Source: Limosilactobacillus sp.
GTDB lineage: Bacteria > Bacillota > Bacilli > Lactobacillales > Lactobacillaceae
Assembly (NCBI RefSeq): GCF_022482365.1
Contig: NZ_JAKVPE010000001.1
Span: 930,001-994,000, forward strand
Direction of reading: 5' to 3'
DNA length: 64,000 nucleotides
Position numbers and translations under genes: made by a program. Within the stretch, counting starts at the first letter, position 1. The number at the start of each line of letters is the position of its first letter. This document shows, piece after piece, positions 13,501 to 30,920 of this stretch. Below the pieces are notes generated by a model that was not told the origin of the DNA, did not search any database, and worked only from the letters and a program-made list of their open reading frames with translations.

Positions 13501-13546
13501 GCGAAATCAAACGGGGTATTAACCCCTGCCGGAAGGAGGGAGAGAT

Positions 13547-15387: not shown

Positions 15388-16008
15388 ATGGAAATTAATT
15401 TTAATGTTCATGGCCAACAGCGCAAAAAGTTAGTCGAACAGATTGCTGAATACACTCAGCAAAAGGCAGAGTACCAGTACACACCAACTTATGCATACCA
15501 GATTGGCAAATACACTATCAGCAAGGATGGCAATCTTCTATCCCCGGATGAGATTCCTGCTGGATTAGTAACACATCTTAAGCAACAGGGATTCACACCC
15601 AGCGAGACAGTCAAGTTGAACATAACATATCGCCGCAATGAGTTTACTGACCAAGATCTAGATAACCTACGCCATTTAATCTGGGCAAAAGGACAATTAA
15701 TCAAAGACGCTTGCCAACTGAACTCGTTGCCTCTCACAATCGATGACCAACAAGTAACCTTCGATTGGTTCACCGAAGTTAACACCGATGATGCTCCAGC
15801 TTATCAACAATTGATCGATAAGTTAGTGCGATACGCAAAGAGTCACCAGCGGATTATGTCCCAGCCACGGGAAGAAAGCAATGAAAAATATGCCTTTCGT
15901 TGTCTTTTGCTCCGGCTGGGATTTATTGGCCCAAGGTATAAGAAGCAACGGAAGGTGTTACTTAAAAATTTAACCGGGTCCGCCGCATTCAAAAGTCAGG
16001 AGGCTTAG
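15388..16008 (+). CDS. Phage protein of the so-called virulence-related family
   Basis: 206 residues, start chosen at 15388 with AAGGAGGT seven bases upstream. The C-terminal segment EKYAFRCLLLRLGFIG followed by RKVLLKNLTG is the hallmark of a conserved phage protein usually labelled virulence protein, although no virulence function is established. It has a beta-rich N-terminal half and no membrane segment. It lies between the methyltransferase and the large terminase, as in related phages. Confidence 0.7.
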   Translation: MEINFNVHGQQRKKLVEQIAEYTQQKAEYQYTPTYAYQIGKYTISKDGNLLSPDEIPAGLVTHLKQQGFTPSETVKLNITYRRNEFTDQDLDNLRHLIWAKGQLIKDACQLNSLPLTIDDQQVTFDWFTEVNTDDAPAYQQLIDKLVRYAKSHQRIMSQPREESNEKYAFRCLLLRLGFIGPRYKKQRKVLLKNLTGSAAFKSQEA

Positions 16009-16010
16009 TC

Positions 16011-16217
16011 ATGAACAGGATCAAAGATGAATTAGCCAAACGTGATCGTATTCGCCAACAGGTTTTACAAATTCGCAATACCGGTGAAGTAAATATGTTT
16101 GATATTGAAAACGTAAAACGACTCGCTTATTACTATAATTGCCACGATCTGATCGACTATTTAACCACTGACCGAGCCAGCTATGTCAACCTGATCTTAA
16201 CCGGTAAATTTAATTAG
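16011..16217 (+). CDS. DUF5049 family small protein
   Basis: 68 residues. The segment VLQIRNTGEVNMFDIENVKR, followed by a YVNLILTGKF end, matches DUF5049, small helical proteins that travel with the preceding family in phage packaging modules. Function unknown. It starts two bases after the previous stop with an AGGAGG sequence overlapping the upstream gene, so it is translated as part of the same unit. Confidence 0.68.
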   Translation: MNRIKDELAKRDRIRQQVLQIRNTGEVNMFDIENVKRLAYYYNCHDLIDYLTTDRASYVNLILTGKFN

Positions 16218-16223
16218 CTACCA

Positions 16224-16254
16224 AGCATTGAGTTCACTCTCAGTGCTTTTTTAG
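16224..16254 (+). terminator. Terminator before large terminase gene
   Basis: AGCATTGAG (16224-16232) pairs with CTCAGTGCT (16239-16247), one mismatch, then TTTTTT. It would set lower transcription of the head genes or end a shorter transcript. Confidence 0.7.
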
Positions 16255-16280
16255 TACTAACGAAAGGAAGTGATGCTTTC

Positions 16281-17879: not shown

Positions 17880-17907
17880 TTACGAAAAACTGAAAGGAGT
17901 TGATGCC

Positions 17908-19173
17908 ATGAGTCTATTTAATAAATTGTTCCATACCAATAAAGCTTCACCCAAAAACACCCTATCCAGCACCATGTCATTTTTCTTCGGCAGTTCGATG
18001 GCTGGCCAAAATGTGACCGAACGCACCGCAATGCAGAATACAGCAGTTTATGCTTGTGTGCGAGTCTTGGCTGAAGGATTAGCTGAACTGCCACTCCATA
18101 TTTATCAATACACCAGTGATGGTGGCAAACAGCGGGCAACTAACCACCCGCTTTATTTTTTGCTTCATGATGCGCCAAATCCAGAAATGACCAGTTTTAT
18201 CTTCCGTGAAACTTTGATGAACCATCTCTTACTGTGGGGTAATGCTTATGCTCAGATCATTCGAAACGGTCAGGGCCAGATCACTGGGCTCTATCCTTTG
18301 ATGCCAGATCGAATGGACGTTAACCGTGCTGCCAACGGTGAAATCTACTATACCTATACCCGCAACTATGATGATTACCAAGCAAACAATAAATCGAAGC
18401 AAGTCATTCTCTTATCCGATGAAGTCCTTCATATCGCAGGGTTAGGATTTGATGGTTTGATCGGCTATAGTCCAATTGCGATGGCCAAGAATGCGATTGG
18501 ATTATCCATGGCCGCCGAACAATATGGAGCCACTTTCTTCAAAAATGATGCCACGCCTGGTGGTGTTCTCGAGCACCCTAATGTAGTCAAAGATCCTGAA
18601 CGGCTTCGGAAAAGTTGGCAGTCACAATTTTCGGGATCTAATAATCACAGCATTGCTGTCTTGGAGGAAGGAATGACTTTTCACCAGCTTTCCATTCCAC
18701 CCGACCAAGCGCAATTCCTTGATACCCGAAAATTCCAACTCGACGAAATTGCCAGAATTTTTCGTGTTCCACCGCATATGGTTGGTGGCCTAGACCGTTC
18801 AACTTTCTCAAATATTGAGCAGCAATCACTAGAATTCGTAAAGTACACCCTGAACCCTTGGTGCATTCGCTGGGAACAAGCTATGAATCAACAGCTACTT
18901 TCCGCTGATGATCAACGAAAGTTCTTCGTCAAATTCAATGTTGATGGACTACTACGTGGCGATTACGAAAGCCGAATGAATGGCTATGCAATTGGACGCC
19001 AAAATGGTTGGTTGTCTGCAAATGATATTCGGGAACTTGAAGATCTTAACCGCATCCCTACTAATGAAGGCGGTGACGAATACTTGGTAAATGGCAATAT
19101 GCTACCACTCAACCAAGCTGGTAACTTCTATAATTCTCAACCATCTAAAGAAAGTGAGGAACCGAAAGAATGA
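17908..19173 (+). CDS. HK97-family portal protein
   Basis: 421 residues of the HK97-type portal family. The portal is a ring at one capsid vertex through which DNA enters and to which connectors attach. Recognisable stretches are AVYACVRVLAEGLAELPLHI near 50, a WGNAYAQIIR segment and a conserved core with FRVPPHMVGGLDRSTFSN near 285. SD AAAGGAG precedes the start. It overlaps the protease gene by four bases. Confidence 0.93.
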   Translation: MSLFNKLFHTNKASPKNTLSSTMSFFFGSSMAGQNVTERTAMQNTAVYACVRVLAEGLAELPLHIYQYTSDGGKQRATNHPLYFLLHDAPNPEMTSFIFRETLMNHLLLWGNAYAQIIRNGQGQITGLYPLMPDRMDVNRAANGEIYYTYTRNYDDYQANNKSKQVILLSDEVLHIAGLGFDGLIGYSPIAMAKNAIGLSMAAEQYGATFFKNDATPGGVLEHPNVVKDPERLRKSWQSQFSGSNNHSIAVLEEGMTFHQLSIPPDQAQFLDTRKFQLDEIARIFRVPPHMVGGLDRSTFSNIEQQSLEFVKYTLNPWCIRWEQAMNQQLLSADDQRKFFVKFNVDGLLRGDYESRMNGYAIGRQNGWLSANDIRELEDLNRIPTNEGGDEYLVNGNMLPLNQAGNFYNSQPSKESEEPKE

Positions 19174-19793
19174 AACGTTTCTGGAACTGGAGCGGTCCTC
19201 AAAATCAACGTGTCTTAACTATCAACGGTACGATTGCTGAAGATAGCTGGGTTGATGATGAAGTCACTCCCCAAGTATTTCAAGATGAATTAAGTCAAGG
19301 GAAAGGGCCAATCAATCTCTGGTTAAATTCTCCCGGTGGTGACTGTGTCGCTGCCAGTCGCATTTACACGATGCTAATGAATTATCCCGATGACGTGAAC
19401 GTCAAGATTGACGGTATCGCTGCTTCAGCGGCATCAGTTATCGCCATGGCAGGAACAAAAGTTTCCATGGCTCCAACCGCGATGATCATGATCCATAATC
19501 CATTAACCATTGTTGGTGGACAAAAAGAAGATCTTGATCAAGCTGCACAGATGCTAGCTGAAACCAAAGAATCAATCATTAATGCCTATGAGCTTAAAAC
19601 AAATCTACCCCGCGAGAAGATTTCAGCCATGATGGATGACGAAACCTGGATGAACGTTAACAAGGCCATCGAGTTAGGCTTTGCTGATGATATGCTAGGT
19701 CAAAATAAAGATATCACAGATTGTTATTCCTATTCGGATAAGCAATCGGATCTCGTTGTCCTCAATAAACTCAAACGAACAAGCAAAATCTAA
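19170..19793 (+). CDS. ClpP-like prohead (head maturation) protease
   Basis: 207 residues of the S14 ClpP-like family used as phage prohead protease. The SPGGD segment shapes the oxyanion region, the nucleophile serine is in DGIAASAASVIAMAG near 92 and the histidine is in IMIHNPL near 113. It removes the N-terminal scaffold domain of the capsid protein during assembly. The C-terminal 30 residues are less conserved. It is coupled to the portal gene by ATGA. Confidence 0.9.
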   Translation: MKRFWNWSGPQNQRVLTINGTIAEDSWVDDEVTPQVFQDELSQGKGPINLWLNSPGGDCVAASRIYTMLMNYPDDVNVKIDGIAASAASVIAMAGTKVSMAPTAMIMIHNPLTIVGGQKEDLDQAAQMLAETKESIINAYELKTNLPREKISAMMDDETWMNVNKAIELGFADDMLGQNKDITDCYSYSDKQSDLVVLNKLKRTSKI

Positions 19794-19802
19794 TATCTCT
19801 GT

Positions 19803-19829
19803 AAAGTCGCTGCAAAAGCGGCTTTCTTT
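19803..19829 (+). terminator. Weak hairpin between protease and capsid genes
   Basis: AAAGTCGCT (19803-19811) pairs with AGCGGCTTT (19817-19825), with one G-T pair, followed by a mixed CTTTG. It is a weak terminator or a 5' stabilising hairpin for the capsid message. Confidence 0.4.
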
Positions 19830-19861
19830 GTTATCACACTAATTTTTAGGAGGACTTATCA

Positions 19862-21040
19862 ATGAGTAAAATTACTGAATTACAAGAAAAGCGTGCCCGT
19901 ATTTGGAAACAAGCAAAGGATTTCCTAGATGCTAAGCAAAAGGAATCAGATGTACTCTCAGCCGAAGACAATGCCCGCTATGAAAAGATGGAGCAAGAAG
20001 TTGTCGACTTAGGTAAGGAAATCAATCGACGGCACAAGCAGGCAGAAATTGAAGTGGCACTGAACCAACCTACCTGTAAGGCCCTTACTAATTCCCCAAC
20101 TGCTGATCAGCTACCAAAGAGACAGGATGCTTATGCAAAAGATTTCTGGAAAATGATGCGTGGACATGCCGTCATGGATGCTCTTAAGGAAGGTGCGGAC
20201 CCCGATGGTGGTTTCTTAGTGCCCGACGAATTTGAAAACCAACTTATCCAAAAGTTGCAAGAAGCAAACGTGCTGCGAACGATCAGTCACGTCATCCAAA
20301 CCAATAGCGGCGAACACAAGATCCCGGTTGTTGCCAGCGAAGGAACAGCTGCTTGGCTTGAAGAAGAAGCAGCCTACACAGAGTCCAACACGCAATTTAG
20401 TCAGGTGTCACTAGGCGCCCATAAGTTAGGAACCCTAATCAAAGTGTCGGAAGAATTACTAAACGATTCCGCATTTGATTTGATGTCCTATCTCTCTGAT
20501 GAATTTGGCCGCCGACTCGGTAATGCCGAAGAACAAGCCTTTTTAACCGGTACCGGTACTGGTCAACCTACTGGCATCTTAACTGACACTAATGGTGCTT
20601 CAGCCGGATCCACAGCTGCTAAGGCCGATACGTTAACTTTTGATGATTTGATCGACCTTTTCTATTCCTTAAAGGCGCCATACCGTCAAAATGCTGTCTT
20701 TTTGATGAACGATGACACTGTGAAGGCCATCCGCAAGATGAAGGATAAGAATGACCAGTACATTTGGCAACCTTCCGTTCAGGCGGGCCAACCAGACCGA
20801 ATCCTCAATTGCCCGGTTTATACTAGTCCGTTCATGCCAACCATGGCCGCATCTAATAAGCCAGTGCTCTTTGGTGATTTCAATTACTATTGGATTGCTG
20901 ATCGTCAAGGTCGAACCTTCAAGCGTCTCAATGAACTTTATGCCGTAACTGGTCAAGTCGGTTTCTTGGGCTCGCAACGAGTAGATGCCAAAGTCATCCT
21001 CCCAGAAGCCATTAAGACTCTCGCCATGGCTGCTAAGTAG
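19862..21040 (+). CDS. HK97-family major capsid protein
   Basis: 392 residues. The first 80 or so are a charged coiled-coil delta domain (ELQEKRARIWKQAKDFLDAK), which acts as scaffold and is normally removed by the prohead protease. The rest is the HK97 fold, with GADPDGGFLVPDEF near 110, EEEAAYTES, LIKVSEELLNDS and EEQAFLTGTGTGQPTGIL. Normal length. SD AGGAGG precedes the start. This is the shell protein of the particle. Confidence 0.94.
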   Translation: MSKITELQEKRARIWKQAKDFLDAKQKESDVLSAEDNARYEKMEQEVVDLGKEINRRHKQAEIEVALNQPTCKALTNSPTADQLPKRQDAYAKDFWKMMRGHAVMDALKEGADPDGGFLVPDEFENQLIQKLQEANVLRTISHVIQTNSGEHKIPVVASEGTAAWLEEEAAYTESNTQFSQVSLGAHKLGTLIKVSEELLNDSAFDLMSYLSDEFGRRLGNAEEQAFLTGTGTGQPTGILTDTNGASAGSTAAKADTLTFDDLIDLFYSLKAPYRQNAVFLMNDDTVKAIRKMKDKNDQYIWQPSVQAGQPDRILNCPVYTSPFMPTMAASNKPVLFGDFNYYWIADRQGRTFKRLNELYAVTGQVGFLGSQRVDAKVILPEAIKTLAMAAK

Positions 21041-21056
21041 AAAGGACTGATGTAAT

Positions 21057-21335
21057 GTGGCTGCTATTACTTTGGCCGAAGCAAAAGCCTACCTAAGAGT
21101 TGATAACACAACTGAAGATGACCTCATCACAAAGTTGATTGGATCAGCAACTGCTACCGTCGAAAATGTCCTTCGTCAGCCTCTATCAGCATTCGATTCC
21201 CTTCCTGATGATATTCACACGGCAATCCTTTATACCGTGGCCTACCTTTACGAATATCGGGAAACCGCCGATTTTGATGCCATGATCAAATTTCTTCGAG
21301 CCATCTTGTCCCCTTACCGGAAGGAGGAATTTTAA
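21057..21335 (+). CDS. Head-tail connector protein (HK97 gp6-like)
   Basis: 92 residues starting at GTG. The opening ITLAEAKAYLRVDNTTEDDL and the helical remainder are typical of the gp6-like connector, which forms a ring below the portal. The ATPYRKEEF-like end (SPYRKEEF) is also common in the family. It directly follows the capsid gene, with AAAGGA upstream. Confidence 0.87.
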   Translation: MAAITLAEAKAYLRVDNTTEDDLITKLIGSATATVENVLRQPLSAFDSLPDDIHTAILYTVAYLYEYRETADFDAMIKFLRAILSPYRKEEF

Positions 21336-21719
21336 ATGCAACAGCAAAACAAACGGGTCAGTAAGATTGCTGATATTGGTGAATTAGATCGCCGTATTAC
21401 GCTGATGAAAAAGAAATATGTCGGCGAAAATCCTAATACTGGAATGTCGATGTACAAGGATGTTCGCTTAGGCGATGTGTGGGCAAAAGTTTCTGCTCTG
21501 CATGGTCAAGAATATTACACGGCGGTTACGGTCAAATTGGAAAAGCAATTGTCCTTTATTATTCGATATCGTGATGATATTGACGAAGAAACCAACATTT
21601 GGTTTGAAGGTCGTGGCTACAATATTGGCTTTATTGATGATGTCAAATATAACCATGAGTACTTGGAAATTAAGGCCGAGTATTCGAGAGGAGTTGATGA
21701 TCCGAATGAAGACAACTAG
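21336..21719 (+). CDS. Phage head closure protein
   Basis: 127 residues of the head-tail adaptor or head closure family (SPP1 gp16/HK97 gp7-like). Features are LDRRITLMKK near 16, DVWAKVSALHGQEYYTA near 47 and FEGRGYNIGFIDDVKY near 91. It plugs the portal and gives the surface on which a tail docks. SD GGAGGAA precedes the start. It is the last structural gene: the expected tail completion and tail tube genes do not follow, and its 3' end overlaps the holin gene by 14 bases. Confidence 0.88.
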   Translation: MQQQNKRVSKIADIGELDRRITLMKKKYVGENPNTGMSMYKDVRLGDVWAKVSALHGQEYYTAVTVKLEKQLSFIIRYRDDIDEETNIWFEGRGYNIGFIDDVKYNHEYLEIKAEYSRGVDDPNEDN

Positions 21720-22116
21720 TTTAACGGTAATTAATACTTGCTTTGGTGCAATTGGTGCTTTTCTCGGCTGGCTCTTAGGCGGGCTAGATGGTTTCTTATA
21801 TGTTCTCTTGATTTTTATGGTCGTGGACTATATCACCGGAGTGCTTTGTGCCATTAATGAGCATAAGCTCTCCAGCGAGATTGGCTTTCGTGGGCTTACG
21901 CGCAAAGTATTAATCCTATTGTTAGTTGGCATTGCACATTGCCTTGATATTTACCTATTAAAGAATGGTTCAGCAATCCGTACCGCTACTATTTTCTTCT
22001 ATATCTCTAATGAAGGTATTTCTCTATTAGAAAATATAAGCCGTCTGGGGCTACCCGTACCTGATAAATTGAAAAGTGTTCTCCAACAATTGCACGATAA
22101 GGACGATAATAACTAA
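21706..22116 (+). CDS. Phage holin family protein
   Basis: 136 residues with three or four membrane segments (FGAIGAFLGWLLGG, FLYVLLIFMVVDYITGVLCA, VLILLLVGIAHCLDI). The motif VDYITGVLCAINEHKLSSEIGFRGLTRK identifies the toxin secretion/phage lysis holin family, which permeabilises the membrane at lysis. The start at 21706 is preferred; 21697 is also possible but leaves only three bases after GAGGAG. No endolysin gene follows, which is unusual. It overlaps the head closure gene. Confidence 0.88.
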   Translation: MKTTSLTVINTCFGAIGAFLGWLLGGLDGFLYVLLIFMVVDYITGVLCAINEHKLSSEIGFRGLTRKVLILLLVGIAHCLDIYLLKNGSAIRTATIFFYISNEGISLLENISRLGLPVPDKLKSVLQQLHDKDDNN

Positions 22117-22121
22117 CTTTT

Positions 22122-22150
22122 GCCTGTGGACTGCGGTCTGCAGGCTTTTT
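22122..22150 (+). terminator. Strong terminator ending the late block
   Basis: GCCTGTGGAC (22122-22131) pairs with GTCTGCAGGC (22136-22145), one internal mismatch, tetraloop, then TTTTT. It ends the head-holin transcript. Confidence 0.85.
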
Positions 22151-22248
22151 GTTGTTTCTATGGTAAAATATCATCAGGTCTGAAATGGTGGGTCGCTCCC
22201 AACATGGAAGGCTTAGTGATAAGGACATGGTCGCATCACCCTTCAACT

Positions 22249-22262
22249 ATTCCTGATAACGC
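22249..22262 (+). repeat. Direct repeat DRa of a par/Fst-like locus
   Basis: ATTCCTGATAACGC, repeated with one change at 22416-22429. In par-type (Fst) type I toxin-antitoxin loci, paired direct repeats like these lie on both sides of the toxin frame and let the two RNAs interact. This copy lies just upstream of the toxin ribosome binding site. Confidence 0.55.
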
Positions 22263-22274
22263 GAGGTGATGACT

Positions 22275-22401
22275 ATGTTAATTTGGAAAGAATCGAGGAC
22301 TCGGCATTACTGCCGCCATAGTTATCGTGGCAGTCGGCCAGTTGATCATTGACTGCGCCAAAGCCTACGCGATAATAAAAAAAGCCAACCATAACGGTTA
22401 G
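22275..22401 (+). pseudogene. Type I toxin peptide frame, apparently frameshifted
   Basis: From the ATG at 22275 (SD GCGAGGTGATG) the frame reads MLIWKES and then runs into unlike residues. Moving one base after 22295 opens a hydrophobic peptide, LGITAAIVIVAVGQLIIDC then AKAYAIIKKANHNG-stop at 22401. Together these would give a 41-residue single-membrane-segment peptide with a basic tail, the usual form of Fst/Ldr-like toxins. The extra A at 22296 would silence it, unless the read is wrong or frameshifting occurs. Direct repeats and a convergent antisense RNA surround it. Confidence 0.5.
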
Positions 22402-22467
22402 CTTCATCCTCGATCATTCCTGATCACGCTTGAGGGTAACGAGATGCAGCTCGTTGCTCTCTTTTCT
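22376..22467 (-). ncRNA. Putative antisense antitoxin RNA (RNAII-like)
   Basis: A minus-strand promoter at 22474-22502 would start a transcript near 22467. The transcript ends at a hairpin, AGCTAACC-GTTAT-GGTTGGCT, with a T run at 22376-22403 (plus coordinates). The roughly 90-base RNA contains the second direct repeat and overlaps the 3' part of the toxin message. This is the convergent layout of par-type type I antitoxins. Inferred from structure only. Confidence 0.5.
22416..22429 (+). repeat. Direct repeat DRb of the par/Fst-like locus
   Basis: ATTCCTGATCACGC, 13 of 14 bases equal to the copy at 22249-22262. It lies in the region shared by toxin message and antisense RNA. Confidence 0.55.
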
Positions 22468-22470
22468 TTT
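22439..22470 (+). terminator. Terminator of the toxin message
   Basis: AACGAG (22438-22443) pairs with CTCGTT (22450-22455), followed by GCTCTCTTTTCTTTT. It is the likely 3' end of the plus-strand toxin RNA; the antisense transcript begins just inside it. Confidence 0.5.
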
Positions 22471-22473
22471 ATT

Positions 22474-22502
22474 ATGATAGCTGATCTATCCTATTTTTTC
22501 AA
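22474..22502 (-). promoter_or_regulatory. Promoter of the antisense RNA
   Basis: Read on the minus strand: TTGAAA (22502-22497), a 17-base spacer, TATCAT (22479-22474). Good sigma-70 form, pointing into the toxin locus, with no protein gene downstream on that strand. Confidence 0.55.
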
Positions 22503-22544
22503 CTTTTTAGCTGGCAGTTTTCTGTCAGCTTTTTTCTTTTACCA

Positions 22545-22584
22545 TGGTTTACTTTTCGACCTCCGCTGGCTTATCAGTGGAGGT
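22545..22584 (+). promoter_or_regulatory. Hairpin masking the ribosome binding site of the recombinase operon
   Basis: TGGTTTACTTT leads into ACCTCC (22559-22564), which pairs with GGAGGT (22579-22584). The 3' arm is the Shine-Dalgarno sequence of the gene starting at 22592, seven bases on, so the folded RNA would block translation. The leader and the loop core CTGGCTTAT recur at 7886-7924 with a different but still paired stem. Confidence 0.5.
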
Positions 22585-22591
22585 AATTAAG

Positions 22592-22825
22592 ATGACCAAA
22601 CAAGTTAAAGAAGTAACTCATCAACCACTGACGTCGATCAATACAACAATTTCGCAAAAGCAATTGCTAAATGACTTACATTATCGACAATCCAAACAGA
22701 TCATCCAGAATCTGCTTAATAAAGGCTTAATCTCGCCCACCGAATTTAAGGACATTGATGCCTTAAACAAGCAGTCATTTCCACCATTATTAGGGCCCGG
22801 AAACGTTGATACATCAGGTCTCTAG
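22592..22825 (+). CDS. Small SHOCT-like protein preceding the recombinases
   Basis: 77 residues. The C-terminal half, YRQSKQIIQNLLNKGLISPTE followed by FKDIDALNKQSFPPLLG, resembles the short SHOCT-type helical motif. Small genes with such a domain often precede serine recombinases in Gram-positive elements. It may assist or regulate recombination, but this is not established. The start at 22592 is chosen because GGAGGT is seven bases upstream; an earlier ATG at 22544 falls in the hairpin. Confidence 0.6.
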   Translation: MTKQVKEVTHQPLTSINTTISQKQLLNDLHYRQSKQIIQNLLNKGLISPTEFKDIDALNKQSFPPLLGPGNVDTSGL

Positions 22826-22860
22826 AGCTAACATACCACACTGATGAAAGGAGGTTTGTC

Positions 22861-24522
22861 ATGTCAACCATTACTAAAATCCAAAGCTACCATCGTGATG
22901 CCAAGCAACTCCGTGTAGCGGCCTATTGTCGAGTTTCAACTGACAACGTTGAACAACTTGAAAGTCTTGAGAATCAGCGTGAACACTATCAAAAATACAT
23001 TAGCAATCAACCAAACTGGCAGTTAGCTAAGATCTATTACGATGAAGGAATCTCGGGTACCAAATTGACAAAGCGTGATGCCTTAAAAGAATTACTAGCT
23101 GATTGTCATAATCACCGAATTGACCTCGTAATTACCAAGTCGATCAGCCGCTTATCACGGAATACAACCGATTGTTTACGAATCGTTCGAGAGTTACAAC
23201 AGCTGAACATCCCGATTATCTTTGAAAAGGAACATATCAACACTGGAGCAATGGCCAGCGAATTATTTCTCTCAATTCTCAGCAGTATTGCTCAGGATGA
23301 ATCTCATTCGACTGCAGGAAATTTACGCTGGTCAATCAGGCAACGTTTCGCTAGTGGTGAGTTTCGAGTATCCTCTGCTCCCTATGGATATTCAATTGAG
23401 GATGGCAACTTAGTTATCGATTCAGTGGAAGCCGGGGTTGTGCGAGAAATTTTTCAACAATTTTTAAGCGGGATGTCAGCTAGTCAAATTGCTAGAAAAC
23501 TGAATCACAGCCATGTCGCAACAAAGCGTGGTGGTCAATGGCGAAGTAACACCGTGATTAACATCTTACGAAACTGTAATTACACCGGTGATATGCTCTG
23601 CCAAAAGACTTATCGTGATGATCAATATCACCGTCATTTTAATCAAGGTGAACTCACTCAATACTTAATTGAAAACCATCATCCAAGTTTGATCAGTCAC
23701 CAAGCCTTCGATCAAGCTCAGAAAATAATTAAGGAAAATGCGCAAAAGCGCCACATTGAAGTCGGTACTCACAAGTATCAGCAACATTATCCTTTCTCAG
23801 GAAAAATCATCTGTGGATATTGCAGTACCACCTTTAAGCGACAAACCAGACCTAATAAAATCTGTTGGGCATGTCAAAAGCACTTAAAGTCTGCAAAGCA
23901 ATGCCCGATTAAAGCAATTAGTGAAGAAAGTTTGGAAGCCGCCTTCTGCAGCATGATGAATAAGTTAATCTTCAGCCAGAAGTTCCTACTGCAACCATTT
24001 CTTGAAGAACTACAAAATCAAGCTAATAGCAATTCCAATGGTGAATTAGGAAAATTGGCTGAGCAAATCAAAGCTAACGACCATAAGGCCGAAACGCTAA
24101 CCCGATTGATGCAAACTGGGCTGCTCGACAAGGCCATTTATGTTAACCAAACGGCCAAACTAGAACAAGACGCTTATCAATGCCGACAAAAGATCAAACT
24201 ACTGAATAGTCAAAATACTGATTCAGCCAACGATTTTGAAGAAGTCAGGTCTTTACTGCGTTGGTGCCAGAAAGGGCAAACGCTAACCAGCTTTAATCCC
24301 AACTTATTTCAAACTTTTGCACAGCAAATCATTGTCAACGATCCGACTGAAGTGATCTTTAAACTCAAATGTGCCTTGGAATTAACTGAAAAACTAACCA
24401 AGAAAGCCGCAGTCTATCAACAATTCTACCGTGGCATCATTAAGCAACGGTTCAATGAACCAATCAAGCAAGCCGAATATTTGTACAGCATTATCGAAAG
24501 TGAAGGTGATTTAATTGGGTAA
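22861..24522 (+). CDS. Large serine recombinase 1
   Basis: 553 residues. N-terminal resolvase domain: LRVAAYCRVSTDN with catalytic S26, then VITKSISRLSRN and FEKEHINTG. A recombinase domain follows (APYGYSIEDG, GGQWRSNTVINILRNCNYTGD). A zinc ribbon with ICGYCSTTF, CWACQK and a further cysteine lies near 330, and a coiled-coil C-terminus follows. Large serine recombinases integrate and excise elements between short att sites. It overlaps the next recombinase gene by eight bases, and the two may act as a pair. No attachment core is evident next to it. Confidence 0.92.
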   Translation: MSTITKIQSYHRDAKQLRVAAYCRVSTDNVEQLESLENQREHYQKYISNQPNWQLAKIYYDEGISGTKLTKRDALKELLADCHNHRIDLVITKSISRLSRNTTDCLRIVRELQQLNIPIIFEKEHINTGAMASELFLSILSSIAQDESHSTAGNLRWSIRQRFASGEFRVSSAPYGYSIEDGNLVIDSVEAGVVREIFQQFLSGMSASQIARKLNHSHVATKRGGQWRSNTVINILRNCNYTGDMLCQKTYRDDQYHRHFNQGELTQYLIENHHPSLISHQAFDQAQKIIKENAQKRHIEVGTHKYQQHYPFSGKIICGYCSTTFKRQTRPNKICWACQKHLKSAKQCPIKAISEESLEAAFCSMMNKLIFSQKFLLQPFLEELQNQANSNSNGELGKLAEQIKANDHKAETLTRLMQTGLLDKAIYVNQTAKLEQDAYQCRQKIKLLNSQNTDSANDFEEVRSLLRWCQKGQTLTSFNPNLFQTFAQQIIVNDPTEVIFKLKCALELTEKLTKKAAVYQQFYRGIIKQRFNEPIKQAEYLYSIIESEGDLIG

Positions 24523-26113
24523 AGTACACATTATCCCAGCCCACCAGCAAAAAGGAAATACTATTCATCAGCGGCGTAGTCAACATCCATTTGACCAACT
24601 CCGAGTGGCCGCTTATTGCCGGGTTTCGACCGACTATGATGAGCAAGCTAGCTCCTACGAAACTCAGGTAGCTCACTACAAAGAGCTAATTCAAAAGAAA
24701 CCAACCTGGGAATTTGCAGGTATCTATGCTGATGATGGAATCTCCGGAACCAACACCAAGAAACGGGAACAATTCAATAAAATGATTGCGGCCTGTAAAG
24801 CCGGTAAAATTGACTTAATTGTCACCAAGTCAATTAGCCGATTTGCTCGAAATACTATTGATTGCCTGAAGTATATCCGGGACTTAAAAGCTATCAATGT
24901 GGCGATCTTCTTTGAAAAGGAAAACATCAACACCATGGACGCCAAGGGTGAAGTTCTGATTACCATCATGGCTTCCCTTGCTCAACAAGAAAGTGAGTCC
25001 TTATCACAAAACGTCAAGATGGGGATTCAGTACCGCTATCAGCAAGGAAAAGTATTCGTGAATCATAATCACTTCCTGGGCTATACCAAGGATGCTCAAG
25101 GTAACTTGGTAATTGAACCGGAAGAAGCCAAGGTTATTAAACGGATCTTCTATAGCTACTTAAATGGAATGAGCATGAAGCAAATCGCTGATTCACTCAA
25201 AGCTGATGGTATTCTGACTGGTGGCAAAACAAAAAATTGGCGCTCTAGCAGCGTGGCTAAAATCCTAAAAAATGAAAAATACATTGGTGATGCCCTTTTA
25301 CAGAAGACTTACACCGTTGATTTTCTTAATAAAAAACGAGTGAAGAATGAAGGCATCATGCCACAATACTACGTGGAGAATGATCACCCGGCGATTATTC
25401 CCAAGTCTGTTTTCATGCAAGTACAGCAGATCATCAAACAGCGCCGAAATGGTATCACTACTAAGAACGGTAAGCATAGGCGCCTTAACGGTAAATATTG
25501 CTTCTCTCAAAAAATATTTTGTGGTAAGTGCGGTGATATCATGCAGCGAAACATGTGGTATCGACCAGAGAAAGTAGCAGTCTGGCGCTGCGCCAGTCGG
25601 ATAAGGAGAAGTAAAACTGGTCGCCGCTGCATGATTCGAAACGTTAAAGAACCCCTTCTAAAAGAAGCTACTATTGAGGCTTTTAACCAGCTCATTGAAG
25701 GGCATGAGTTAGCCAACAAACAAATCAAAGCCAACATCATGAAGGTCATCGAGAACTCCAAAGGACCAACACTCGATCAAATCAACCAACAGTTGGAAGA
25801 GGTACAGATGAAGCTCATCCAGGCTGCCAATCAGCATCAAGACTGCGACGCGCTAACCCAGCAAATTATGGACCTGCGGAAGCAAAAAGAAAAAGTCCAA
25901 AGTCGTGAAACTGATCAACAAGCCAAACTACACAGCCTTGATGAAATTAACAAATTAGTCGAATTGCACAAGTATGGCTTAGTTGACTTTGATGAACAAT
26001 TGGTTCGTCGCTTGGTAGAAAAAATCACCATCTTCCAACGCTACATGGAATTCACGTTCAAAGATGGTGAAGTAATTAGACCTGAATTATGCATATCTTT
26101 TCCTAAACCTTAA
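24515..26113 (+). CDS. Large serine recombinase 2
   Basis: 532 residues starting at TTG. It has the same architecture as its neighbour: LRVAAYCRVSTDY with catalytic S38, IVTKSISRFARN, FEKENINTM, a recombinase domain (HNHFLGYTKDAQGN, KNWRSSSVAKILKNEKYIGD), a zinc ribbon (FCGKCGDIM and WRCAS near 335) and a coiled coil. The two proteins are clearly homologous but diverged, not a recent duplication. A tandem pair of this type recalls ccrA/ccrB of SCC elements, where both are needed; that comparison is one of arrangement, not of sequence. A 23-base stretch near its 3' end (26017-26039) recurs at 28072-28094. Confidence 0.92.
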   Translation: MGKVHIIPAHQQKGNTIHQRRSQHPFDQLRVAAYCRVSTDYDEQASSYETQVAHYKELIQKKPTWEFAGIYADDGISGTNTKKREQFNKMIAACKAGKIDLIVTKSISRFARNTIDCLKYIRDLKAINVAIFFEKENINTMDAKGEVLITIMASLAQQESESLSQNVKMGIQYRYQQGKVFVNHNHFLGYTKDAQGNLVIEPEEAKVIKRIFYSYLNGMSMKQIADSLKADGILTGGKTKNWRSSSVAKILKNEKYIGDALLQKTYTVDFLNKKRVKNEGIMPQYYVENDHPAIIPKSVFMQVQQIIKQRRNGITTKNGKHRRLNGKYCFSQKIFCGKCGDIMQRNMWYRPEKVAVWRCASRIRRSKTGRRCMIRNVKEPLLKEATIEAFNQLIEGHELANKQIKANIMKVIENSKGPTLDQINQQLEEVQMKLIQAANQHQDCDALTQQIMDLRKQKEKVQSRETDQQAKLHSLDEINKLVELHKYGLVDFDEQLVRRLVEKITIFQRYMEFTFKDGEVIRPELCISFPKP

Positions 26114-26237
26114 CGAGAATGCTGCTACACCATAGTTTTATCTTTGATTGAGGGTTTCACCAAAATGGTGTACCAAAAAAGCACCTTCCGTGTTATTGTT
26201 ATAGCGACCAAACAATAACGAACACAGGAGATGCCTC

Positions 26238-27384
26238 ATGACTAACTTACACGAAACCCAACTGCGATTCAACCCTAAAATCAAAATTAAGACTGATGAT
26301 GTTCAACTTTCAAATAACGCAGGCCTGTTGTTTTACGCCGAATTTAAGCACGCAGCTGGTCTTGACCAAATTATTGATCAAGCGGCGGCACAATTAAGCG
26401 AAAAACATATTGGCCCTCATTATTCTAAAACTAGCTTACTCAATCAAATGCTGGAACTGAATATTGCCGGTTACGGCAATGATGTCGCGGCCGACGCGCT
26501 ACAACGACCCAGTCATGAAACAGGTCCATGGGACGACTGATTTAGCACCACAACCGACTATTTCTCGTTTTTTAAGTGCGCTAACTTGTGATGATGTTCT
26601 GCACTTGAACCGTTTGATTTTAACTTTGGCGCTCGATTATATCAGTACTAAACATATTGACACGGTCATGCTTGATGTTGATTCGACGCATTGTGATACC
26701 TTTGGTCATCAAGAAGCTGCTAGTTTCAATGCGCATTATGGGGTTACTGGTTTCCATCCGCTAGTGGCCTATATCGCGCAGCTGAATTTGCTTTTAGGAA
26801 TCAAGCAACGTCCAGGCAATCAGTACACCAGCACTGGTGTCAAAGAATTCTTAGCCCCGATCTTTGCGGCTTTTTGTGAATTGCCGTTTGATGTTCAGTT
26901 GATTTTACGCGGTGATAGTGGTTTTGCGACGCCTGAGCTTTATACGCTCTGCGAATTTTATGATGTAAAATATGTGATCCGCCTGAAGCAAAACGCCGCT
27001 TTAGACCAACTAGCTGATGAATTCACACCAGTAGTGCCCAAGCATTTTGATCAGAATTCGGTCATCTATGGTGAATTCAACTACGCGGCCAAGAGCTGGT
27101 CGATTGATCGACGTGTCCTAGTAAAATCGACGCATCAAGTAGGCGAACTATTCTTTGAACGGCAATATATGGTCACTAATATGACTGAAGCCGGGGTCAA
27201 ATTATTGTACTTAGCCTATCAAAAGCGTGGGGCCATGGAAAACCTGATCAAAGAAAGTAAAGCAGGCTTTTTTATGGATAAGACGAATAGCCACACCGTA
27301 GCAATTATCGAAGATTTATACCGCCAATGGACCCAAGTATTTTATTTGAAAAGCGCTTTCACAACTGTTATAGTATTAGTGTAA
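26238..27384 (+). pseudogene. IS1380 transposase, frameshifted and 3' truncated
   Basis: The first frame (26238-26540) reads FNPKIKIKTDDVQLSNNAGL through VAADALQRP. The protein then continues in a second frame from about 26505 (NDPVMKQVHGTTDLAPQPTI), with the IS1380 core DVDSTHCDTFGHQEAASFN, VQLILRGDSGFATPELY and KRGAMENLIKESKAGFFMDKTNSH. The lost base lies near 26500-26515. After NSH the family sequence is not recognisable and about 80 C-terminal residues are missing. It cannot make an active enzyme. Confidence 0.85.
27346..27374 (+). promoter_or_regulatory. Promoter of dps
   Basis: TTGAAA (27346-27351), a 17-base spacer, TATAGT (27369-27374), 37 bases upstream of the dps start. It lies inside the tail of the IS1380 frame, which marks the junction between IS remnant and native DNA to its left. 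Confidence 0.6.
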
Positions 27385-27411
27385 CCAATAGTTATGAAGA
27401 GGGGGTTCATT

Positions 27412-27894
27412 ATGACAACTTACAATTATGACTTTCCAAAATCAAAAGCACAACTCAATCAACTGATTGCCGATATCAGCCAATTAAAGGTCAACGTTCA
27501 ACAAACACACTGGTATATGCGCGGTGAAAACTTCTTCCGTCTCCATCCGCTGATGGACGAATATGGCGATCAACTAAGCGAACAGCTCGATCAAATTGCA
27601 GAACGCTTGATTGCTTTAAATGGTAGCCCACTGGCAACAACTCACGAATTCATTGAAAATACTGGCCTACCAGATGACAAAGTCGCTTTTGATCAATTAA
27701 CGATGACTGAATTCATGCAACGGCTAGTTGATCAATTCAAGTACCTACGTGACCAATACCAAAAAGGAATCGAAGTTACTGACGAAGAAAAAGACTTCCC
27801 AACTCAAGATATGCTTAATGGCTTCAAGGATGAAACCGATAAAAATATTTGGATGATCAGTGCTTATCTAGGCAAAGCACCATTCGCTGACTAA
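27412..27894 (+). CDS. dps: Dps family ferritin-like DNA protection protein
   Basis: 160 residues. Dps forms a 12-subunit shell that oxidises and stores iron with hydrogen peroxide and protects DNA in stress. The ferroxidase ligands are in QQTHWYMRGENFF near 34 and HPLMDEYGDQLSEQLDQIAER near 46-66. The length is typical. The start at 27412 has GAGGGGG upstream and fits the family; an earlier in-frame ATG at 27394 has no good SD. It is a single gene with its own promoter and terminator. Confidence 0.92.
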   Translation: MTTYNYDFPKSKAQLNQLIADISQLKVNVQQTHWYMRGENFFRLHPLMDEYGDQLSEQLDQIAERLIALNGSPLATTHEFIENTGLPDDKVAFDQLTMTEFMQRLVDQFKYLRDQYQKGIEVTDEEKDFPTQDMLNGFKDETDKNIWMISAYLGKAPFAD

Positions 27895-27897
27895 TAT

Positions 27898-27940
27898 AAA
27901 AGACCATATGGCTATAAACGAGTAGCAATATGGTCTTTTC
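27898..27940 (+). terminator. Terminator of dps
   Basis: A perfect stem of about 13 bases, AAAAGACCATAT against ATATGGTCTTTT, starting three bases after the stop codon, with a T run. Confidence 0.85.
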
Positions 27941-28237
27941 TTATGCTGAAAAAATAGCAACCAATAACACGACAATAACTCCCTGAATTATTCACCATAA
28001 GTTCTCCAAGCACAGTGTCACCCCGTTATCATGGGCGGTACTGTGTTTTTTATTTTTCACCTTTTTAGAGCAGAAAAAATCACCATCTTCCAACCTGTAG
28101 TTAACCGTTAACAAATAGTCATCCACCAGTAACTGTAACTCTTTTGAGGAACTTACCCAATTATTTATCACACTGAGCAACTCCGATTGAACATCATTAT
28201 AGTCATATAAAAAACTGTACGCTTGAATTATTTAGGG
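27941..28237. other. Scar region between dps and the cold-shock gene
   Basis: No intact gene. The plus strand has a hairpin CACAGT (28011) to ACTGTG (28040) followed by a T run to about 28057. On the minus strand an open stretch reads LLSVINNWVSSSKELQLLVD with no clear start, perhaps a gene fragment. A 23-base sequence at 28072-28094 is identical to 26017-26039 in recombinase 2. Confidence 0.45.
28072..28094 (+). repeat. 23-base copy of a recombinase-2 segment
   Basis: AGAAAAAATCACCATC followed by TTCCAAC is identical to 26017-26039 inside the C-terminal coding region of recombinase 2 (EKITIFQ). Outside these 23 bases the flanks differ. It may be a remnant of another recombinase gene or a product of recombination. 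Confidence 0.6.
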
Positions 28238-28266
28238 TTGCATACAGCGAATTAAAGTGTTAAAAT
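28238..28266 (+). promoter_or_regulatory. Promoter of the cold-shock gene
   Basis: TTGCAT (28238-28243), a 17-base spacer, TAAAAT (28261-28266). It gives a 5' untranslated leader of about 110 bases, as usual for csp genes, whose leaders fold differently in the cold. Confidence 0.55.
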
Positions 28267-28383
28267 TATTCAGATTAACACATCAGGAAGTTATAAGTAT
28301 CATTCATTTTTGCTATCTATTATTTTCTTAGATGTTAATTCAATTTGGTTACTTTGGTTTGATTCCTAGGAGGATATATATAT

Positions 28384-28584
28384 ATGCAAAATGGTACTGT
28401 AAAATGGTTTAATGCTGATAAGGGCTATGGGTTTATCTCTGGTTCAGATGGTAAAGATGTATTCGTACACTTTTCATCAATTAAAACTAACGGTTTTAAG
28501 AGTCTTGAGGAAGGGCAAAAAGTTAGTTACGATGTTGAACAAGCCGATCGAGGACCTCAAGCGACTAATGTTGTTCCACAATAA
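28384..28584 (+). CDS. csp: Cold-shock protein, CspA family
   Basis: 66 residues, one OB-fold cold-shock domain with both RNA-binding motifs, KGYGFI (RNP1) and DVFVHF (RNP2). It is an RNA chaperone that loosens mRNA structure in the cold and in fast growth. SD AGGAGG precedes the start. It has its own promoter, long leader and terminator. The sequence [16 protein letters not shown] is typical of lactobacilli. Confidence 0.95.
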
Positions 28585-28600
28585 TTTGTCTAATATTATG

Positions 28601-28633
28601 AAGAACTGCTTTTGATGGAGCAGTTCTTTTTTT
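28601..28633 (+). terminator. Terminator of the cold-shock gene
   Basis: AAGAACTGCT (28601-28610) pairs with AGCAGTTCTT (28619-28628), followed by a T run. Confidence 0.88.
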
Positions 28634-28679
28634 ATGGCTCTTCGTCAAAAAGTACTGATAGAAAAATTTGAATAACTTT

Positions 28680-29093
28680 TCAAACAGCTCGTGTCTGAGA
28701 TTGGACATGAGCTGTTCTTTTATTCTTCCAGTTGATGGCAAAGTATGAGTTAGGAAGGGCAAGCAGGATTTGAGCCCGAAAATTAAAGAAGTTACGAAAG
28801 CCATAAGCAGTTCGTTTAATAACTTTGATCTTATTGTTAGTTCCTTCGACTGGACCATTCGTGTAGTCACCATATTTAAAGCTGGTGATAATCTCTTTAC
28901 GATTCCTCCGGAGAGTCCGTTGAACTTTTTGAAGTGATTGGGGAAGCTGGGTCCATTTAATCGCGAGTAAATGATTGAGTTCATCCTTACTACGATGATT
29001 GATCGCGAGAATAAGGTCCTGATAATAACGATAAGCTTGTTTAAGATCATCATTGAAAGCCAGTAAGCGTTGAATAACTTCAACGTCGGTCAA
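28680..29093 (-). pseudogene. ISL3-family transposase, C-terminal fragment
   Basis: 137 codons matching the end of ISL3-type transposases: ITSFKYGDYTNGPVEGTNNK, then IKVIKRTAYGFRNFFNFRAQ with the catalytic glutamate in VEGTNN. About 290 N-terminal residues are missing, with no trace upstream. The remnant predates the IS30 copy B insertion next to it. Inactive. Confidence 0.8.
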
Positions 29094-29147
29094 CTGAGTA
29101 TACTCTATTGTAGCAGACTATTGAAAACGTTTACTTATTTTTGCTGA

Positions 29148-29250
29148 TTATTCCAACTTTAAATCGGCTTGACTGACCATAGTATCAACCTTCAATTCAT
29201 GGATTGTATATTCAGTTGAAATTTGTGATAAATGATGATTAACATTTATT
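29148..29250 (-). pseudogene. 3' part of a small ORF interrupted by IS30 copy B
   Basis: Removing IS30 copy B and one 13-base repeat joins this stretch to 30530-30550 and restores an open frame on the minus strand, starting at the ATG at 30550: MQEINVNHHLSQIS through DLKLE-stop, 36 codons. I do not recognise the peptide. The AAGGATAAA upstream could serve as SD. It may be a real small gene or a remnant of the neighbouring ISL3 region. Confidence 0.4.
29238..29250 (+). repeat. Target duplication of IS30 copy B, left
   Basis: ATTAACATTTATT, repeated exactly at 30530-30542. These are the two 13-base direct repeats made when copy B inserted. Confidence 0.9.
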
Positions 29251-30529
29251 GGTAGATTATAGAATGAAGTTAGCCACCCAGTTGGTGGTAAATAAAAAAC
29301 GCCATTCGGCGTGACATCAGGTATCATATTAAGTGAACCAAACCTATATGAAAGGATGTCCGTCAAATGACGCACTTAAATGATACCATGTCTACTATTT
29401 TATTGACTACTCATAAAAAGAATGCTCATCTTACTAAAGAAGAACGTGTGATGATTGCGACTTTAAAGTCGCAAGGACTTTCCAATCGCGCAATTGGTCG
29501 CCAATTAGGAGTTAATCATCAAACAATTAATAACGAGCTCAACCGTGGTACGGTCCGCCAACTTCGTCGTCAAAAATCTAATGGTAAGATTTACGAATAT
29601 TCTTACTACATCTATAGTTATGAAGCTGGTCAGGCCACATATCTTGAACATCACCGCCATTCTGGTCGTCGTCGCTTATATTATTCTTCAAAGCAATTTT
29701 TACGATTAGCTGATCAGCTAATGCTTGGTGAGTTTGACGACCACCATTACTCCCCACAAGCGGTTATTTATAAGGCTCGAGATTTAATGAATGATGGCAC
29801 CCTGATCCCAAAGTCGGTTGTAACTTTATATCAATGGATTAATGAGGGTGTGCTTCGTACGTCCAATTTAGACCTCTTTGAAAAACCTAAACGTAAGCAT
29901 CATCAAACTCATCCGCAAGCTAAAAGGTGCTTAGGGCCTAATATTGCTCAACGACCTCAAACTGCGGACCAACGGTCCGAAATTGGCCATTGGGAACTGG
30001 ATACAGTTCAGGGACAGAAAAACGGTAATGACAGTGTTGTACTAGTAATGACTGATCGCCTTTCACGAGTTAATATCACGAGTAAAATTGCTGGTAAAAC
30101 TGCGCATGCAGTAAATCAGTTCTTTATAAATTTGCGCCAGAAAATGGGCACAGATGCTTACTATCGCATTTTTAAGACAATAACCTCTGACAACGGTTCA
30201 GAATTTAGTGAGTTAACACAAGTTCACGATCATGTTTTCTATGCTGATCCGTATTCCCCTTGGGAACGTGGATCCAATGAGATCAATAACCGGTTTCTCC
30301 GCAAGGAGATTACCAAAGGTGAAGCTATAAATAACTATAGTAGTGCTCAGATCATAGCGACTAATGATTGGATGAATCACTATCCACGAGCTATGTTTAA
30401 TGGACATTCGTCAATGGATATCTATCGTAAGGCCTTCTACCAAGAGATATCACAGCTCCATCAACCAATAATCAATTGGTCAGTATTATTTATTTGAGTC
30501 CAGTGGCTAACTTATTCTTGAAATTTAGG
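29251..30529 (+). mobile_element. IS30-family insertion sequence, complete copy B
   Basis: 1279 bp from GGTAGATTATAG to AATTTAGG, with inverted ends sharing the core AAGTTAGCCAC and exact 13-base target duplications on both sides. By eye it looks the same as copy A and differs from copy C at one base. The intact duplications show that this copy inserted here and has not recombined since. Confidence 0.95.
29367..30497 (+). CDS. IS30-family transposase (copy B)
   Basis: 376 residues, identical to the copy A protein, with helix-turn-helix near 22-60 and D212, D275, E305 in the RNase H-like core. Complete frame with AAAGGA upstream. With its ends and duplications intact, this is a fully competent element. 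Confidence 0.95.
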   Translation: MTHLNDTMSTILLTTHKKNAHLTKEERVMIATLKSQGLSNRAIGRQLGVNHQTINNELNRGTVRQLRRQKSNGKIYEYSYYIYSYEAGQATYLEHHRHSGRRRLYYSSKQFLRLADQLMLGEFDDHHYSPQAVIYKARDLMNDGTLIPKSVVTLYQWINEGVLRTSNLDLFEKPKRKHHQTHPQAKRCLGPNIAQRPQTADQRSEIGHWELDTVQGQKNGNDSVVLVMTDRLSRVNITSKIAGKTAHAVNQFFINLRQKMGTDAYYRIFKTITSDNGSEFSELTQVHDHVFYADPYSPWERGSNEINNRFLRKEITKGEAINNYSSAQIIATNDWMNHYPRAMFNGHSSMDIYRKAFYQEISQLHQPIINWSVLFI

Positions 30530-30542
30530 ATTAACATTTATT
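30530..30542 (+). repeat. Target duplication of IS30 copy B, right
   Basis: ATTAACATTTATT, identical to 29238-29250. Confidence 0.9.
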
Positions 30543-30920
30543 TCTTGCATAGCTGATTTATCCTTAAAAAAGAATAATTTTTGTCATACACGTCGAGTAT
30601 ACAACTCTCCTGCGAATTTTCGATATTTTAACCGAATTAGCATAAATTCAATATTATTTTCGTTGACTCACTCCTTGGTACCAAACTGACCGATTCGTAC
30701 ATACCACAAACGCTACCATATCAAGGCTCACTTCTACTTTCACTACCATAATCAACACAACCTGCCAAACTGGACATTCGCACACTCGACTATCGAAATA
30801 GGACATAGAACACTCGACCCGCCAGCTTCAAATAGAAGAAGTGTACTATTTCCAATAGTTCAGAAGGGAAAAAGTACACTTTCAATCATCTATAAATACC
30901 GTCAGAGCGCGGTTTATCGG
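30543..30920. other. Gene-free stretch with possible IS21-type end remnant
   Basis: No convincing gene. At 30772-30790 and 30801-30818 there are two related repeats (GGACAT, then 3-5 bases, then ACACTCGAC). At about 30839-30882 there is an imperfect inverted repeat around AAGTGTACT and AGTACACTT. Repeated terminal motifs of this kind occur at IS21-family ends. The start of a small interrupted ORF lies at 30530-30550 on the minus strand. Confidence 0.35.

Follow-up and report, generated by a model that had tools for sequence, protein, structure and literature searches.

Tandem large serine recombinases as the probable integration and excision machinery of a Limosilactobacillus island at the 3′ end of rlmD

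A conserved pair of large serine recombinases

The stretch of DNA analyzed here (the window, 64,000 nucleotides, C1:930001-994000) comes from a Limosilactobacillus sp. genome, G000, which consists of one contig of 2.34 Mb. It carries two tandem genes for large serine recombinases (LSRs), designated Rec1 and Rec2. Based on sequence comparisons, we propose, with a probability of roughly 60%, that these two proteins constitute the integration and excision machine of a 38.8-kb mobile island, which is probably a capsid-forming, tail-borrowing phage satellite. Throughout, G008-G048 denote genomes of the same genus, and L numbers denote loci from the wider and viral scans; the genome comparison used one genome per species.

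The rec1 and rec2 reading frames share 8 bases. The Resolvase (PF00239), Recombinase (PF07508) and zinc ribbon (PF13408) domains scored above cut-off in both proteins, both matched the integrase family phrog_95, and the motif YCRVST placed the catalytic serine at S26 in Rec1 and at S38 in Rec2; with lengths of ~500-550 aa, the two have the make-up of integrase-type LSRs. The original prediction for this DNA had described two complete recombinases with these positions, serines and overlap, sharing all three domains and a coiled coil. The open reading frames (ORFs), the motif and the Pfam matches bear out this layout, and the predicted model of Rec1 (mean pLDDT 78.6, pTM 0.38) contains long helices at ~355-470, the coiled-coil region. 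A Foldseek search with this model returned serine integrase complexes as the best matches (E 3.5e-20), at a TM score of only ~0.29. Completeness holds in the sense that both genes are full LSR ORFs, but the last ~10 codons of Rec2 (from ~26080) are foreign in the window; in relatives, the native protein ends at 525 aa, followed by what appears by eye to be a hairpin and a T-run.

The foreign junction that ends rec2, and the transposase gene that follows it, are common to the window and G017, as are the transposase, ferritin-like and cold-shock genes 3′ of rec2 (window 26080-29250). The common altered Rec2 end and downstream genes point to a recent shared history of the islands of these two species.

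Rec1 and Rec2 are identical at 183 of 503 aligned positions (36.4%). In a quick IQ-TREE analysis of 142 rows (61 Rec1-type and 81 Rec2-type), one branch with support of 100 separated the two types, at a place where the program warns that long branches meet. The prediction that the proteins are homologous yet not recent duplicates agrees with both results, and recent duplication of one LSR is ruled out by the separate clades.

The pair was then followed across genomes. A Rec1 query against 194 genomes, G000 included, gave matches in 69, among them 12 with a Rec1 at 69-100% identity. Rec2 lies beside the close Rec1 in 10 of these 12; in G015 it is fragmented, and in G024 the contig ends before it. 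A Rec2 query against 84,980 species yielded 304 relatives; the 80 best were retained (17 lactobacillar, 63 from other hosts), Rec1 playing no part in the selection. Usable loci numbered 54 of the 63 non-lactobacillar ones (those with >2.6 kb of DNA upstream of Rec2) and 15 lactobacillar ones; some lactobacillar L loci and G genomes are identical records, so these counts are partly non-independent. Some Rec1 was present at 52 of the 54 non-lactobacillar loci, in full at 44, and both LSRs were full at 10 of the 15 lactobacillar loci. By these comparisons, Rec1 and Rec2 are an ancient, position-faithful pair and one conserved unit; given the position-specific clades and the joint conservation at loci, the pair would derive from an old duplication and travel together. 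The original prediction had also considered that one recombinase might belong to a separate, nested element. This is ruled out by the conserved order SHOCT-Rec1-Rec2, in which SHOCT is the small gene upstream of rec1 described below.

A single true integrase, most likely the more conserved Rec2, with the other LSR as a helper, a relic or a protein acting elsewhere, is a less probable explanation. Rec2 is better conserved than Rec1 in all nine relatives in which both are full or nearly so (88% vs 69% in G017; 91% vs 78% in G048), and a full Rec2 occurs without a full Rec1 at seven loci (L022, L023, L026, L043, L047, L048 and L084), while Rec1 of G045 contains one stop codon. Single-LSR phages and girC/girX further indicate that an LSR plus a small factor can be enough, girAB being dispensable (PMC5595907; published work is cited here and below from the parts of the papers that were available). 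On the other side, the catalytic motif is kept in both types (58 of 61 Rec1 rows, 81 of 81 Rec2 rows), and full pairs are in the majority (44/54 and 10/15). The ratio of nonsynonymous to synonymous substitution rates (dN/dS) is also low for both, at 0.07-0.16 for Rec1 (defined in three of five comparisons) and 0.03-0.04 for Rec2 (four of five).

Island ends and the 3′ coding end of rlmD

The original prediction had proposed that attachment (att) sites be read by strain comparison, and attL and attR could indeed be read. The right site, attR, is located in the 3′ coding end of the gene for a 23S rRNA uracil methyltransferase, which we take to be rlmD/rum. attL lies at G000:C1:922138-922154 (window position -7862) and attR at C1:960955; they share the core ACATGC, and the island extends 7.9 kb to the left of the window. 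The reading frame of rlmD is intact because the island supplies the 3′ end of the gene.

Compared with G017, the window is 97-100% identical per 40-bp bin over 30601-30960 and 62-90% identical beyond, inside rlmD. G034, which has the nearest RlmD (97%), lacks the pair (one distant LSR match at 31%) and shows the opposite pattern, with 57-77% identity to the window over 30761-30960 and 82-100% after. In G026, G048, L022, L025, L026, L028 and L029, a displaced rlmD 3′ end runs as far as ACATGC and then passes into CACGAGC; in G026, the rlmD sequence halts at CTCAACATGC, and CACGAGC... follows. In these seven, the left half of attL can clearly be recognized as an rlmD end. Eleven sites were included in the junction alignment, and the G022 contig begins at the core. 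According to these alignments, the island junction is ACATGC in the coding end of rlmD. Genes downstream of rlmD vary widely in 21 other genomes (14 + 7).

Other boundaries and targets were considered. Two other right ends, one directly behind rec2 and one at 30589, where several species share a 24-bp motif, are ruled out since the shared stretch continues into rlmD and stops at ACATGC. By analogy with the integrase triplets of streptococcal integrative and conjugative elements (ICEs), hsdS/hsdM was considered as a target and ruled out, the HsdS piece being cargo inside the island.

A search of 50 genus genomes found the attL pattern TCNACATGCCACGAGMT at 12 sites in 11 genomes and the reversed control in none. 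Eight of these 11 are among the 12 genomes that have a close Rec1, and three are among the 38 others (p = 1.2e-4). Viral contigs contained 17 stretches with the pattern, of which 7 enter the element arm (L157, L158, L160, L162, L168, L169 and L171) and 10 other DNA.

Recombinases of the PF00239 and PF00589 families were sought inside the islands. In G026, G048, G017 and G042 (islands of approximately 36-38 kb), Rec1 and Rec2 are the sole PF00239 proteins, and PF00589 is absent. The G000 island has one additional PF00589 gene, beside hsdS, and the island of G022, searched too, is split over contigs. Within these two families, the pair is thus the sole recombinase found in four of five complete islands; together with its conservation as one unit and the att sites, this supports in part the two-recombinase system for excision and integration that had been suggested for the island.

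It seems highly improbable that the att sites belong to a different integrase and that the LSR pair is merely resident in an rlmD hotspot. Other junction types do occur near the rlmD stop codon (G012, G014, G038 and G047), and the same attL is found at the pair-less islands of G008, G028 and G033. This explanation, however, is met by the lack of any other PF00239 or PF00589 recombinase in the four complete islands and by the association of attL with the pair, and islands without LSRs are expected as passengers.

Several loci show further arrangements around rlmD. The displaced rlmD fragments of G012, G014, G038 and G047 end closer to the stop codon, and the replaced ends are of other types; apparently, a further integrase family inserts at this end of rlmD. 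Between attL and rlmD, G008 (C1:1546668 to ~1557310) and G028 (C2:12037 to ~16520) carry att-flanked islands of 10.6 and 4.5 kb with no Rec1 match, possibly passenger cassettes moved in trans. In G033, an attL is present at an island of approximately 25 kb whose element body lacks recombinases, and a Rec2-like gene (L026) lies beyond the attL. One 1.56-Mb contig of a metagenome-assembled genome holds three Rec2 copies (L022, L025 and L015) with att-type junctions between element ends; these loci are probably tandem island arrays. Recombination between like arms would account for the probable arrays as well as for islands that have no recombinases.

SHOCT_2 and a middle protein lacking the catalytic domain

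The protein encoded upstream of Rec1 matched PF20612 (E 1.4e-15, 57.6 bits against a cut-off of 24). It had been suggested as a possible helper, a role made reasonable by its being a conserved neighbor of the pair: SHOCT is present at 10/10 lactobacillar, 42/44 non-lactobacillar and 31/31 viral loci with both LSRs full, and at 48 of all 54 usable non-lactobacillar loci. Judging from synteny, SHOCT_2 is probably the directionality factor of the pair.

In the phages Javan630, Erysipelothrix phi1605 and Gardnerella AB1, the gene order is SHOCT (70-71 aa), Rec1, a protein of 136-138 aa, and Rec2. The middle ORF was found at 53 of the 54 non-lactobacillar loci and at 44/44 of those with both LSRs full, and at 0/10 lactobacillar loci with both full. 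Its product shows weak similarity to PF07508, which stays under the cut-off for three of the four proteins scanned, and has no PF00239 match. The ten best PDB matches of the AlphaFold model (pLDDT 84.9, pTM 0.62) were all LSR-DNA complexes (probability 1.00, TM 0.51-0.56), with a best E of 3.8e-3 and no PDB match below 0.001. As modeled, the middle protein consists of an LSR recombinase domain that ends in a C-terminal tail helix, and it lacks a catalytic domain.

In Limosilactobacillus, the middle gene is missing, and Rec1 ends in ~40 residues that match the C-terminal end of the middle protein (17/46 identical, E 1e-8, in one comparison). Four of the 31 viral full-pair loci, the tailless relatives L211-L213 and L240, retain a separate middle gene. 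Because the Rec1 tail matches the middle-protein C-terminus and these four relatives keep the gene, the sequences indicate that a deletion or fusion removed the body of the middle protein and left its tail on Rec1, where it may act as a docking element.

More tentatively, we hypothesize that two catalytic LSRs, a SHOCT switch and an empty LSR-domain protein that binds DNA form an obligate multi-subunit complex, which would occur in a Gardnerella phage and in phage-related elements of Bacillota. Tailless, head-making, defense-carrying lactobacillar satellites would have simplified it by moving the C-terminal docking tail of the empty subunit onto Rec1. If true, this would be a new kind of multi-subunit LSR system. 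No description of the empty middle protein, the SHOCT-LSR link or this lactobacillar family was found in the literature searched, which scarcely covered subscription journals.

A head module without tail genes

The island encodes TerS, TerL, HNH, portal, protease, capsid and connectors, and no tail genes were found among the window ORFs scanned, which is the gene set of a capsid-forming satellite. A tail module has no room between the head genes and the holin because the head completion gene overlaps the holin gene. Head genes are present in 8 of 10 fetched relatives (absent in G020 and G023), and in 8/8 the holin directly follows the head completion gene, which in G045 matches in two pieces. 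In the viral collection, a capsid query was used with the best 80 of 89 relatives, many of which are related by ancestry or come from the same strain and are not independent. Among these 80, 44 loci have a capsid of at least 75% identity, and head completion adjoins holin in 44/44, within 50 bp in 42 and at 144 and 160 bp in two. Queries with the Javan630 tail proteins gave no match in these 44 loci and a tail-gene match in 21 of the 36 more distant ones.

An old defective prophage with tail and lysin deleted would also lack tail genes, and the window copy is without the amidase found in 23 of the 44 viral relatives. Internal insertion sequences, and the failure to find a helper with the single tail family tried (PF10145), fit such a history as well. 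We nevertheless regard it as unlikely, as the same tailless junction recurs in the 44 viral loci and 8 genus relatives (loci partly non-independent), and the same rlmD core is used repeatedly across several species with differing cargo. In comparisons with up to six relatives, moreover, the head genes have dN/dS mostly of 0.01-0.06 and up to 0.14, with several dS values saturated.

A second, smaller head-gene island lies at G000:C1:163809-177360 (L254 ~3809-17360), with matches to a PF00589 integrase and a PF04860 portal. By eye, it has regulator-, HNH-, terminase-, protease-capsid- and connector-like ORFs and no obvious tail, and it looks like a classical capsid-forming phage-inducible chromosomal island (PICI).

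Gene content of the island

Features of the window are listed in Table 1. The gene order from 3154 to 22116 is identical in relatives, and the defense genes of the left arm vary by island. In a scan of selected left-arm proteins, the window genome had Abi_2 and type I HsdR/HsdS; G026 had AbiH, an NgoFVII-type restriction protein and Hachiman HamA/HamB; G022 had HamB and a type II methylase; and G048 had a type I methylase and a PDC-S06 protein.

A conserved leader with an inverted repeat (cagtacccaagcga ... ttcgcttggga) precedes the first element gene in five islands (window ~3015-3153), possibly a regulatory RNA or operator. A 376-aa transposase ORF, presumably IS30-like, occurs four times (window 857-1987, 29367-30497, 45816-46946 and -1014..116), once in the hsdS cargo region. 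Elsewhere in the genome, repeated ~30-bp matches between G000:C1 ~904750 and G034 contig C65 resemble, by eye, a clustered regularly interspaced short palindromic repeat (CRISPR) array.

Table 1. Coordinates of the island features within the window.
Feature	Position	Strand	Basis or remark
Island part inside window; attL outside	1..30963	.	core-to-core 38,817 bp
Type I restriction specificity (HsdS) piece, defense cargo beside attL; cargo continues left of window	95..760	+
Cargo ORF	2040..2765	-	no Pfam match
Sigma-region-4-like regulator, first conserved element-body gene	3154..3612	+	weak match
Small conserved early gene	3882..4199	+	no Pfam match
DUF2800 (PD-(D/E)XK-like)	4196..5335	+
Enc34-type ssDNA-binding protein	5292..5888	+
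Family A DNA polymerase	5944..7878	+
DUF7768	7945..8349	+
P4-type primase/helicase	8352..10607	+
VRR-NUC-like nuclease	10655..11101	+	below cut-off
SNF2 helicase	11028..12437	+
Conserved ORF	12434..12901	+	no Pfam match
HNH endonuclease	13002..13427	+
Small terminase	13547..14089	+
DNA methyltransferase, weak ParB-like N-terminus	14089..15315	+
Amidoligase-like	15382..16008	+	PHROG match
DUF5049 protein	16011..16217	+
Large terminase	16281..17879	+
Portal	17908..19173	+
ClpP-type head protease	19170..19793	+
HK97-type major capsid protein	19862..21040	+
Head-tail connector Ad1/gp6-like	21057..21335	+
Head completion protein, last head gene, overlaps holin	21336..21719	+
Holin	21703..22116	+	start codon inferred
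SHOCT_2 protein, candidate directionality factor/helper, upstream of Rec1	22544..22825	+	PF20612
Rec1, LSR, S26, 553 aa, ATG start	22861..24522	+	Pfam, PHROG, motif
Rec2, LSR, S38, 532 aa, TTG start; last ~10 codons replaced at foreign junction	24515..26113	+	Pfam, PHROG, motif
Transposase, split across two frames, at foreign junction ending rec2	26238..27384	+	PF13701
Ferritin-like (Dps-like) gene, right-hand cargo	27394..27894	+
rlmD/rum (presumed name), 23S rRNA uracil methyltransferase, target gene, ORF intact	30921..32297	-
attR region inside rlmD 3′ coding end; core ACATGC 30958-30963; right island end	30955..30971	+

Comparison with known systems

The likeness to the ccrA/ccrB pair of the staphylococcal cassette chromosome (SCC), drawn in the original prediction, holds mechanistically only: the CcrA, CcrB and CcrC NCBIfam equivalog cut-offs (700-900 bits) were missed by far, with a best score of 135.7 bits against 900, and SCC membership is ruled out. 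SCC inserts at the 3′ end of the rRNA methyltransferase gene rlmH, and the island shares with it an LSR pair and insertion at the 3′ end of such a gene; unlike SCC, it has phage head genes, a SHOCT gene and, in relatives, the middle protein. In SCC, the ccrA and ccrB LSRs always occur together, and fused cassettes exist (PMC5595907).

The streptococcal phage Phi1207.3 and its kin (Phi10394.4, Phim46.1) also have two tandem LSRs at one end and use a short core within a chromosomal gene for insertion; the serine recombinase genes orf56 (412 aa) and orf57 (521 aa) overlap by one nucleotide there, and cooperation of the recombinases was already proposed (PMC4260502). Unlike the island, Phi1207.3 inserts in comEC at a GA core and is described as a prophage that carries a lysis cassette as well as structural genes; neither a middle protein nor an rlmD 3′-end replacement is mentioned for it in the available text (PMC4260502). 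The island shares with tandem-LSR phages the two adjacent, co-oriented, full LSRs, and is not a complete phage with a tail module.

The serine-integrase triplets of streptococcal ICEs likewise form position-specific clades, and 42/42 of their integrases have a catalytic PF00239 domain (PMC4701971). The streptococcal name for a 23S rRNA uracil methyltransferase target of this kind is rumA, and rumA ICEs use one LSR; ICEs are conjugative, and the middle protein of the pair's relatives, unlike ICE integrases, lacks the catalytic PF00239 (PMC4701971). The island contains two PF00239 proteins rather than three catalytic integrases, and no relaxase turned up in the Pfam scan of window ORFs, which included no relaxase-directed search.

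PICIs usually carry a tyrosine integrase and are small, from which the island differs by its LSR pair, family A polymerase and large early region, and the islands of this kind by their size of 25-39 kb. Like capsid-forming PICIs, it has its own terminases, HNH, portal, protease, capsid and connectors and no tail, the tails being supplied there by a helper (PMC10690885, PMC11389934). The gin element of Bacillus cereus combines a serine recombinase with the small directionality factor GirX, its girAB LSR operon being dispensable (PMC5595907). A serine recombinase plus a small factor, here a candidate, is common to both; unlike the island, gin is without phage-related proteins (PMC5595907).

Proposed mechanism

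We propose that Rec1 and Rec2 act as one unit on attB and attP, most likely as a mixed complex that requires both LSRs. Exchange would take place within ACATGC, between the rlmD 3′ coding end and an island site made up of an rlmD 3′ end on the left and the conserved CACGAGCTNAG... arm on the right; through this rlmD 3′ end, integration would restore the gene. SHOCT_2 probably turns the complex to excision between attL and attR. The excised circle would replicate and be packaged by means of its own primase, polymerase, terminase and HK97-type head, and the heads would borrow the tails of a helper phage, with the anti-phage genes carried as cargo.

Several observations weigh against this explanation. 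The C-terminus of the window Rec2 is altered. Rec1 might be accessory, given that it evolves more rapidly than Rec2. Some pairs are incomplete (the Rec1 stop in G045, the broken Rec2 in G015, and the contig end within Rec1 in G024), and at 6 non-lactobacillar loci Rec1 is in two pieces. In the window genome, G042, G017 and G008, the likeness of the attL left half to an rlmD end is confined to its last bases. The exact attL pattern was not found in 4 of the 12 close-Rec1 genomes (G023, G032, G045 and G024); for G023 and G045, allowing up to 7 mismatches in the left flanks that were retrieved also gave no match. By dyad scores, both AT and TG qualify as the crossover dinucleotide; the G008 rlmD core, ACGTGC, would favor TG. 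The one helper tail family tried, PF10145, had 0 matches in the window's genome. Finally, the island is known from sequence alone, and the excised circle, virion and transfer are predicted.

Significance

Tandem LSRs, the idea of their cooperation, LSR triplets and capsid-forming satellites are already known; their combination here, with explicit sites, is unusual. To our knowledge, why some elements keep two or more LSRs is an open question in the field. Here, attB, attP, attL and attR can be written from the sequence, the partners are known and a natural fused version exists, which turns it into a question testable on plasmids. If the satellite reading is true, lactobacilli would harbor a further lineage of capsid-forming satellites, one that is driven by LSRs, carries defense genes and enters the chromosome at the 3′ end of rlmD, and the recombinases might offer a new set of integrases for lactic acid bacteria.

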